Virus record (IMG/VR): IMGVR_UViG_3300030430_000208
Coordinates: 742-22,858 of that record
Length of the DNA stretch: 22,117 nucleotides
From: a virus
Direction: 5' to 3' (one strand)
Part shown: one piece after another, positions 15,477 to 19,635 of the stretch
Numbering within the stretch: position 1 is the first letter of the stretch
Layout: each line of letters starts with the position of its first letter
Position numbers and translations under genes: made by a program
Notes under the pieces: model-generated
What the model saw: only the letters and a program-made list of their open reading frames with translations
Database searches by the model: none
What the model was told of the DNA's origin: nothing

Positions 15477-15688
15477 GTTGTATTTATTTTACTACCTTCT
15501 ATTTCCATGTCTAAGCATTTATAGCTTTTGGGGAAGTACATGGGCATATGAATAGGCATTCCTTGTGCAATCTCATATGCTCTTGCTAAACATTTGTCGT
15601 GAGTCGGATGAGGACCATACAAATCTTTTAATGTTACGCACATATTCGGCTCTTGCATTAAACAAGCCAATACAAATAGTTCATACAT
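15443..15688 (-). CDS. 81-residue protein with hydrophobic start and paired Cys
   Basis: MYELFVLACLMQEPNMCVTL opens with a signal-like hydrophobic stretch; Cys at positions 9, 17, 33 and about 58 and a Pro/Met/His/Tyr-rich middle (AQGMPIHMPMYFPKSY) follow. The Ala-Cys in LACL could resemble a lipobox but is too near the start and lacks a basic n-region. Design resembles the 58-residue protein at 12526-12702: hydrophobic head, then Cys-x-x-Ala-Tyr. It overlaps the gene before it by 8 nt. Function unknown. Confidence 0.65.
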   Translation of the reverse strand: MYELFVLACLMQEPNMCVTLKDLYGPHPTHDKCLARAYEIAQGMPIHMPMYFPKSYKCLDMEIEGSKINTTWQRKRENVED

Positions 15689-15893
15689 CGTTCAACATTC
15701 CTTCTGCTTTCATAGCTCTTTCTACATGAGCTAGTGTGAAACGTTTTCCATGCTTCGCTTCTATTGCAGCACGAGCATAAAACACGGAACTATGAGGGAT
15801 ATGTAACTTATGTAGTGTATTAGTATGGATGGCATGGTAAAATGCCTCCAAAATATTCTCTGGTGTATATAGTTTTACTGATTTTCTTCTCAT
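15681..15893 (-). CDS. First gene of leftward operon, small basic helical protein
   Basis: 70 residues from ATG 15893 (MRRKSVKLYTPENILEAFYH); an in-frame TTG two codons upstream is possible. No good ribosome site is seen for either. The sequence is helical with many His and Tyr, and HGKRFTLAHVERAMKAEGML near the end could be a short helix-turn-helix-like element. As the first gene after the leftward promoter it could act in regulation, but nothing proves this. Confidence 0.65.
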   Translation of the reverse strand: MRRKSVKLYTPENILEAFYHAIHTNTLHKLHIPHSSVFYARAAIEAKHGKRFTLAHVERAMKAEGMLNDV

Positions 15894-15949
15894 TGTCAAG
15901 ACTTATTCTATTATTGTACGGAAATTTAACATTGAAGGGGTTTTATTTA

Positions 15950-16023: not shown

Positions 16024-16052
16024 ATTATAGCCGAAATTTTTCATCTTGTCAA
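16024..16052 (-). promoter_or_regulatory. Perfect sigma70 consensus promoter for the leftward operon
   Basis: Minus strand TTGACA (16047-16052), exactly 17 bp, then TATAAT (16024-16029), identical in spacing to the promoter at 10718-10746. Transcription should begin near 16017 and enter the gene at 15893 after a leader of about 120 nt. No copy of the 17-bp palindrome overlaps it, unlike the rightward promoters. Confidence 0.85.
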
Positions 16053-16259: not shown

Positions 16260-16276
16260 TGTCCCAAGTTGGGACA
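16260..16276 (+). repeat. 17-bp palindrome, copy 1
   Basis: TGTCCCAAGTTGGGACA: 8-bp arms around a single central G. In the gene-free region, well upstream of the first rightward promoter. Confidence 0.9.
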
Positions 16277-16348
16277 TTTTACCTGTTAAACCCTTGAAAT
16301 TGCTAGTTTTTTAACTGTTTTAGTAACTGTTATGGTATCAGTTGCCAA

Positions 16349-16364
16349 TGTTTCACGTGAAACA
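16349..16364. promoter_or_regulatory. parS: Perfect parS site (ParB/Spo0J binding)
   Basis: TGTTTCACGTGAAACA is a full match to the 16-bp chromosomal parS consensus shared by most bacteria. ParB loads here and slides as a CTP clamp. No parA or parB is in this window, so host ParB or a phage ParB encoded elsewhere would be needed. Chance of this exact 16-mer in 22 kb is about 5 in a million with equal bases. Confidence 0.85.
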
Positions 16365-16420
16365 ATGTTAAAATATTCAAAATGGTATCACTATTTGATG
16401 TATGGATGTATACCCCTATT

Positions 16421-16460
16421 CGTTCATGTTTCGTTCCTGTTTCGTTCACGTTTCGTTCAC
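16421..16460 (+). repeat. 11-bp tandem iterons (3.6 copies)
   Basis: CGTTCATGTTT, CGTTCCTGTTT, CGTTCACGTTT, then CGTTCAC. Head-to-tail at one helical turn per unit (11 bp), as in iterons bound by replication or partition proteins. It lies between parS and the first rightward promoter. Confidence 0.6.
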
Positions 16461-16501
16461 TCCTGGAATTTCCAACATTCAAAATTTGAGGCTCACCCTA
16501 C

Positions 16502-16517
16502 GTTTCACGTGTCCCAA
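16502..16517. promoter_or_regulatory. Degenerate parS-like site fused to palindrome copy 2
   Basis: Aligned from 16501, GTTTCACGTG (16502-16511) matches ten consecutive bases of parS, and 12 of the full 16. Its last two bases are the first two of palindrome copy 2. Binding by ParB would be weak at best. Confidence 0.4.
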
Positions 16518-16526
16518 GTTGGGACA
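16510..16526 (+). repeat. 17-bp palindrome, copy 2 (abuts promoter)
   Basis: Exact copy ending 1 bp before the TTGACA -35 of the first rightward promoter, where a bound protein would touch RNA polymerase. Confidence 0.9.
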
Positions 16527-16527
16527 G

Positions 16528-16555
16528 TTGACAATGCTTTCACGATGTGCATAAT
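16528..16555 (+). promoter_or_regulatory. First rightward (early) promoter
   Basis: TTGACA (16528-16533), 16 bp, CATAAT (16550-16555). Start expected near 16562, giving a 27-nt leader to the ATG at 16589. TTGACAATGCTT is shared with the promoter at 17913. Confidence 0.75.
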
Positions 16556-16588
16556 GTGATTATGTCAATCATTCATAGGAGAAATAAA

Positions 16589-17173
16589 ATGACAAATTTA
16601 AATGCAAATACTTATAAGTCTTTTTTCGTAACAAGAACAGATAGACTAAACAATGATATTTTTAAAGATTTATCAAAGGGTAAAGATAGCCTAGTTTATA
16701 AAGCTTGTTCAGAATTGACTAATTTACCTAATGACGAATTAGTTGAAAAGGGTTATAAGTTCATGTTTGAGACTAACAAAAAAGGCGAATGGATTAAAAA
16801 GCGTGAGTTCAAAAATGATACTTCTGCACATAAATTCATAGTTGAAAATATTGATTTAGTTTCAGAATTTGCTAAATCTGATAAAGCCAAAAATTCTAAA
16901 GTTAATGGGGTTAGGGGGGTTCAATCAAAAGTTAATGCAAGTATTAGACCAAAAGTTGAAATGTCCCAAGTTGGGACAACTAAGGAAGTTGCAGAAGTTT
17001 CAGAAGTTGCAGAAACTACCAAAAGAACAAAGGCAGAAACTCTTAAAAACTTCGCAGATATATGGTTAAAAGAGCATAACGAAGATTTACTTGCAATGAT
17101 TGAATTTGCAATGTCTGAGGAAGGTGCAAAAATTTCTGATTATTCAGTTGACCAAAAATCAAAAGTTGCCTAA
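16589..17173 (+). CDS. First early gene, unknown 194-residue protein with embedded palindrome
   Basis: Start ATG 16589 behind AGGAGA (MTNLNANTYKSFFVTRTDRL). An in-frame ATG at 16547 lies inside the promoter and is rejected. Residues 1-95 look like a small helical fold with Lys/Asp pairs. Residues 125-130 (Met-Ser-Gln-Val-Gly-Thr) are the translated palindrome copy 3. A Val/Glu/Thr repeat follows (TTKEVAEVSEVAETTKRT), then a Lys-Asn-Phe-Ala-Asp-Ile-Trp helix. Located first after the early promoter and followed by a strong terminator, so it is its own transcription unit. Regulators often sit here, but I see no DNA-binding motif. Unknown. Confidence 0.8.
   Translation: MTNLNANTYKSFFVTRTDRLNNDIFKDLSKGKDSLVYKACSELTNLPNDELVEKGYKFMFETNKKGEWIKKREFKNDTSAHKFIVENIDLVSEFAKSDKAKNSKVNGVRGVQSKVNASIRPKVEMSQVGTTKEVAEVSEVAETTKRTKAETLKNFADIWLKEHNEDLLAMIEFAMSEEGAKISDYSVDQKSKVA
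16962..16978 (+). repeat. 17-bp palindrome, copy 3 (inside a coding sequence)
   Basis: Exact copy in frame inside the 194-residue gene, codons 125-130, read as Met-Ser-Gln-Val-Gly-Thr. Confidence 0.9.
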
Positions 17174-17236: not shown

Positions 17237-17324
17237 ATGATAGTAGTATGATAGTAGGTTGGAGGTTATAGGTTATAGGTATGACAGTAGTATGATAGTA
17301 GGGTGTAGGTTATAGGTTATAGAT
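17237..17324 (+). repeat. 44-bp tandem duplication
   Basis: Units 17237-17280 and 17281-17324 differ at about four positions. Each contains nested ATGATAGTAG and GGTTATAGGTTATAG repeats. It lies between the terminator and palindrome copy 4 and holds no gene. Role unknown; iteron-like DNA is one reading. Confidence 0.75.
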
Positions 17325-19094: not shown

Positions 19095-19235
19095 ATGCGT
19101 AATCAAGATACATTTCAAAAGATACCTGTTAGGAAAAAGCCTAACACAACTAACAAGAACTTATGGAAGTATAACAGGAAGTTACAACGTAAACTTAAAC
19201 TAAAACAACAGGAGAAGTTTTATGCAAAAGGTTAG
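19095..19235 (+). CDS. 46-residue basic protein
   Basis: From ATG 19095 behind AAGGAG: MRNQDTFQKIPVRKKPNTTN then a Lys/Asn/Trp/Arg-rich helix ending Phe-Tyr-Ala-Lys-Gly. It overlaps the next start by 14 nt. Good ribosome site and operon position support it. Function unknown; the charge suggests RNA or DNA contact. Confidence 0.65.
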   Translation: MRNQDTFQKIPVRKKPNTTNKNLWKYNRKLQRKLKLKQQEKFYAKG

Positions 19236-19635
19236 AGTATATTGGAACTTGCACAAAGATGTGTGGAGTGTACAAAGTTGCAAAACAAATTTAGTTATAG
19301 ACCACAAGTCACACATGACTTTAAAAGATGCTAAGTTTGTAGTTCGCAAAGGTGGACAAAAGCGAGTGCGTGAAGAGGGCAAAAAGAATGTTCATGCTTT
19401 TGCAGTAGGTTACATTTACGACAAAGGTGGTATAAGTATAAAGGCAAAGCCTGATGTAGATTGGGATAGAGTCAAGTACAATCCATATACTGATGATTAC
19501 TTCATGCATCAAGGCATGGATGAAAATCAATATAGACCTGACCATTGGAATGAGATACCAAGAGATTGGGTAGGTTGGGTGCGTATGGAATCATTACACC
19601 ACCCAAATGGTATAACACCAAGAGTTTACATTTAA
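19222..19635 (+). CDS. Conserved phage protein with Arg-Val-Arg-Glu ... Lys-Asn-Val-His-Ala-Phe motif
   Basis: 137 residues. The Trp-Asn-Leu-His-Lys-Asp-Val-Trp-Ser-Val-Gln start, a beta-like middle, and GGQKRVREEGKKNVHAF (44-60) match a small family I recall from many unrelated phages, of unknown function. The C-terminus is Asp/Tyr/Pro-rich with a Trp-Val-Gly-Trp-Val motif. It has a ribosome site (GGAG) inside the preceding gene, so the two are coupled. Confidence 0.75.
   Translation: MQKVRVYWNLHKDVWSVQSCKTNLVIDHKSHMTLKDAKFVVRKGGQKRVREEGKKNVHAFAVGYIYDKGGISIKAKPDVDWDRVKYNPYTDDYFMHQGMDENQYRPDHWNEIPRDWVGWVRMESLHHPNGITPRVYI

Follow-up and report, generated by a model that had tools for sequence, protein, structure and literature searches.

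The window analysed here is a stretch of 22,117 nt, positions 742 to 22,858 of the 55,310-bp IMG/VR record IMGVR_UViG_3300030430_000208. It contains a divergent control region with leftward late genes on one side (the nearest at 15681-15899, minus strand) and rightward early genes on the other, beginning with a gene for a 194-aa protein (16589-17173, plus strand). Within this region lies the palindrome TGTTTCACGTGAAACA (16349-16364, no strand assigned), annotated as an exact parS of the chromosomal type from the sequence match, the conservation in relatives and the identity with the chromosomal parS of the host group. The original prediction had placed it in a divergent intergenic region, and the directions of the flanking genes bear this out. 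A 75-aa open frame overlapping the palindrome (16332-16559) was judged spurious. The first early gene product has no Pfam, PHROGs or PDB-fold relative; its predicted structure is of low confidence (pLDDT 67.5) and gives no PDB matches at E <= 0.001. Further along the early operon of this marine phage a homologue of mycobacteriophage L5 gp82 is encoded (19222-19635, Pfam E 7e-28).

Several other elements surround the palindrome. Directly before it stands the inverted-repeat element AACTGTTATGGTATCAGTTGCC (16325-16346, plus strand), found by sequence comparison, and 11-bp-spaced TGTTTCGTTC repeats lie at 16419-16458 (plus strand). A 17-bp near-palindrome, TGTCCCAAGTTGGGACA, which we call Q, occurs on both sides of parS, with the first copy, Q1, at 16260-16276 and the second, Q2, at 16510-16526 (both plus strand). 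Q2 abuts the -35 hexamer of a predicted early rightward promoter, TTGACA-16-CATAAT (16528-16555, plus strand, an 11/12 match), and a predicted leftward promoter, TTGACA-17-TATAAT, is located at 16024-16052 (minus strand, a 12/12 match). A half-parS adjoining Q2 (16502-16511) was considered and dropped, as it is not conserved. It was proposed earlier that iterons and promoters adjoin parS; the iterons are the repeats at 16419-16458, while the promoters are consensus matches only and promoter-like sites in the control region are no more numerous than expected by chance. The TTGACA of the predicted early promoter is kept in relatives.

The palindrome matches the chromosomal parS consensus in 16 of 16 positions (consensus form as in PMC10197239). 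It is the sole match in the window with up to 3 mismatches allowed and the sole match in the whole record with up to 2. Under a first-order Markov model the expected number of exact copies is 5.7e-6 for the window and 1.4e-5 for the record. Both the exact consensus, with 0 mismatches and a single copy in the record, and the earlier estimate of about 5 chance matches in a million per 22 kb thus hold.

Judged from its sequence, the phage is an HMO-2011-type podovirus. The DNA polymerases of Roseobacter phage CRP-345 and Puniceispirillum phage HMO-2011 share about 62% identity with the one encoded here, and for the terminase the identity with CRP-1 is about 80%. The phage has the conserved terminase, the divergent late and early modules and a DNA polymerase with a partial DnaJ insert, in which the CXXCXGXG motif is visible. 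Isolates of this type infect SAR116, Roseobacter and SAR11 hosts. The phage also encodes a tyrosine integrase, its gene lying about 8 kb from parS; an integrase gene is present in most subgroup I and III members of this phage type (PMC9038755). No proteins of the ParB_N, HTH_ParB or ParA-type AAA_31 families were detected in the whole 55,310-bp record, and the same models were positive in control genomes, so that the reported lack of parA and parB extends to the full record.

Relatives were reached in two ways, with the Q repeat and with the 194-aa product of the first early gene. The latter query found the parS clade, whose members are uncultured: parS is at the same place in 8 of the 9 fetched relatives, exact in 7 and with a single change in 1, and the 16-mer thus passes the conservation check on which the original prediction was to stand or fall. 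The ninth relative (L224) keeps Q1, Q2 and the neighbouring elements and has no parS. As some of the relatives are near-duplicates, the distinct parS-bearing lineages number about 6, including that of the window. Across six distinct lineages 15 of the 16 parS columns are invariant, as compared with 45% of columns on average, and only Q and the GTTCCTGTTTCGTTC element, the part of the 11-bp-spaced repeats that is conserved across the clade, match this level. The distance from Q1 to parS is 88-100 bp in every parS-bearing relative.

Beyond the clade, 18 named records (HMO-2011, eleven CRP phages, three pelagiphages, one spring-water phage genome and two rhizobial phages) have neither Q nor parS at fewer than 2 mismatches, the matches with 2 or 3 mismatches being stray ones. 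Hence, parS belongs to one clade, as 8 of 9 relatives keep it and the cultured HMO-2011-type phages are without it. HMO-2011, CRP-1 and CRP-345 share the genome plan and control-region elements of the window phage, but lack parS and Q. They carry the element that precedes parS in the window, in the form AACTGTTATGG(T/A)ATCAGTTGCC, and other sequence comes next; parS was thus either gained in this clade or lost elsewhere. It is also not essential for this phage type, since 18 related or more distant records do without it and one clade member has lost it. Some of these 18 phages infect bacteria that are likely to use parS. The control regions of CRP phages (L227, L228, L230, L233, L234) contain other palindromes, TTTGTGATCACAAA and TAGTTTAACGTTAAACTA.

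In bacteria the exact 16-mer is present in 71 of 96 alphaproteobacterial genomes, usually in 1-3 copies, and the reversed control in none of the 96. In a Rhodobacteraceae genome exact sites at contig positions 36467 and 38381 and a near copy at 38675 are followed by parA (38980) and parB (39880), so that two exact sites and a near one fall within 3.5 kb of both genes. A Pelagibacter MAG has a one-mismatch site, TGTTTCACGTGAAACT, about 1.5 kb from parB. These results support a site of the host type. The search for the host itself with the first early gene gave no match across 84,980 genomes. The terminase matched only contigs in MAGs of conflicting taxonomy, which were judged mis-binned, and for this reason no host is named.

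The palindrome is also over-represented in viral DNA. Exact parS is contained in at least 120 IMG/VR contigs, whereas two control palindromes matched to it in base composition are contained in 33 and 31. It is intergenic in 59 of the 120 listed contigs versus 1 of 64 control contigs (Fisher 4e-13 with rough gene calls, an optimistic value because the contigs are not independent, 35 of them belonging to one DNA-similarity cluster), and multiple copies are found in 17 of the 120 versus 1 of the 64. In several contigs of the 35-contig cluster the gene for the terminase large subunit, terL, lies 90-100 bp downstream of parS. Two contigs of another group have five copies apiece, most of which precede terL. 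Two uncultured groups (L030, L104, L114, L122 and L045; L020 and L047) have 1-5 host-type parS close upstream of this gene. In two tests ParB_N scored above threshold in none of 42 and in 2 of 17 parS contigs, respectively, many of the contigs being short fragments. That the parS contigs are fragments of host origin regions could largely be dismissed, as nearly all the records tested have no ParB and several contigs carry terminase or portal genes; the terminase, portal and polymerase genes of the parS-bearing groups show these to be real phages. Among cultured phages, Pelagibacter phage HTVC027P has a one-mismatch parS, CGTTTCACGTGAAACA, at 16412-16427 (L297:1913-1928), where two convergent genes leave a gap of 291 bp; ParB was not found in this phage.

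We suggest, with a probability of about 0.7, that the site is a true centromere parS of the host kind, with which the phage DNA recruits host ParB, most likely for the benefit of the whole replicon. As parS is kept and the proteins that bind it are not encoded, the phage probably borrows those of its host. ParB is a CTP-dependent clamp that loads at parS and spreads over the neighbouring DNA (reviewed in PMC7022226). Upon infection host ParB would load at the phage parS and slide from it over the flanking control region, and the phage DNA would thereby gain a ParB complex resembling that at the host origin. The phage would supply the DNA site alone and use host ParB together with host ParA and/or SMC. 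An unintegrated genome, in a pre-lysogenic or carrier state, might in this way be positioned, tethered or shared out, or the phage DNA might be organised with the help of SMC; in addition or instead, ParB might repress the early promoter locally or be drawn away from the chromosome. The single parS copy of the window phage, the dispensability of parS in this phage type and the different palindromes that other HMO-2011-type phages have in this region argue against recruitment.

Known systems bracket this proposal. The palindrome is identical to that of bacterial chromosomal ParABS, where parS is usually present in 1-3 copies and, in the genome examined, beside parA-parB; in the phage, unlike there, a single copy sits on a replicon with neither gene. 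P1, N15 and the actinobacteriophages with parABS are phages that have a centromere site and encode their own ParA and ParB. The window phage shares with them the centromere site, but encodes neither protein. The closest precedent is SGI1, which carries parS and uses the ParABS of an IncC plasmid, as was established by experiment, so that borrowing the ParB of another replicon works (PMC10954446). Both are mobile elements with parS and without parB that use, presumably in the case of the phage, the partition proteins of another replicon, the matching ParB of the partner being deduced here from the host group. However, the donor for SGI1 is a plasmid, while the presumed donor for the phage is the host chromosome. 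In the open-access literature we found no report of a phage whose own parS serves to engage the chromosomal ParB of the host.

The main alternative concerns what the recruited ParB would do and overlaps with the proposal above: spreading ParB may repress the early promoter and thereby aid lysogeny or delay lysis. In this clade the location of parS, ahead of the predicted early promoter, would also favour an effect on it. Further in its favour, the phage encodes a tyrosine integrase, its relative CRP-3 inserts itself into a tRNA-Met gene of the host (PMC6918029), and in Pseudomonas aeruginosa ParB at the intergenic parS3 and parS4 represses adjacent genes (PMC7022226). On the other hand, parS is found upstream of terL or elsewhere in other groups, which leaves no particular promoter as the common target. 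As phage groups differ in where parS is located, a role for the replicon as a whole (positioning, partition or a carrier state, SMC loading) seems likelier than the control of one promoter, and we consider local repression a possible, though on the whole doubtful, main function. That the 16-mer is over-represented and intergenic in many unrelated viral contigs without ParB likewise speaks for a strategy of general use rather than for a function confined to a local promoter.

The 16-mer might instead be an operator for a phage-encoded regulator of the divergent region, its match to parS being convergent. Such a regulator has to be taken into account, since in other HMO-2011-type phages this region has palindromes of different sequence, such as TTTGTGATCACAAA and TAGTTTAACGTTAAACTA. 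It would also be suited by the position of parS, which is flanked on both sides by the operator-like Q and precedes the predicted early promoter by about 160 bp. However, only about one in 65,000 random perfect 16-bp palindromes would be parS, the 16-mer recurs between genes in unrelated phages, in some of them adjoining terL, and neither Pfam nor PHROGs revealed a candidate regulator among the early proteins that were searched. We regard this explanation as improbable. A decoy function, which is again a special case of recruitment, appears marginally less probable still. Here the replicating phage copies would pull ParB off the host origin and disturb segregation or replication; their number would far exceed the 1-3 chromosomal sites typical per genome, and some phages even have five copies of parS. 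The window phage, however, has one only, and within the clade the site stays in place, which a decoy would not require, although common descent alone could explain this.

It is very unlikely that the palindrome is the core of a phage attachment site for integration at the host parS. The tyrosine integrase, together with the lack of a tRNA T-arm-like attP in a simple pattern search, would be in line with it, but a core of perfect symmetry cannot set a direction, 2-5 copies are present in other phages, CRP-3 uses a tRNA gene and the integrase gene is distant. Least probable of all is a functionless chance match, for although rare matches are expected when many windows are scanned and one relative has no parS, the site is conserved across the clade while its flanks diverge, and it is over-represented and intergenic in viruses generally.

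Recruitment of host ParB for the replicon as a whole is the reading that we prefer. If it is correct, marine phages would recruit the host centromere protein with a 16-bp site alone, and phage biology would be tied to chromosome segregation. The presence of 1-5 exact host parS and no ParB in phages of several unrelated groups suggests, with about an even chance, a widespread and repeatedly evolved borrowing of the host segregation machinery, in which host ParB, ParA and SMC would treat the infecting DNA as an origin region. HTVC027P, with its one-mismatch parS, and its host HTCC1062, a harmless laboratory strain, make a cultured pair for study. Furthermore, a viral contig should not be taken for host contamination or a plasmid on the strength of parS alone.

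Last but not least, Q itself deserves a description. The record has 11 exact copies, all in the same orientation, which start at window positions 16260, 16510, 16962, 17328, 17436, 17702, 18207, 19067, 19639 and 21085 and at record position 26065. They often stand just upstream of ribosome-binding sites or within genes, where they encode SQVGT. In relatives the copies downstream of the start of the first early gene are in one orientation in 30 of 30 cases, and those upstream of the early promoter vary. With the stoperators of mycobacteriophage L5 type Q shares the many copies and the orientation fixed relative to transcription; it resembles a stoperator or, alternatively, an RNA hairpin of the early message. 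No repressor gene was recognised in the phage. Just upstream of one Q copy a 42-bp unit, ATGATAGTAGTATGATAGTAGG..., is present as a direct repeat (17237-17322).
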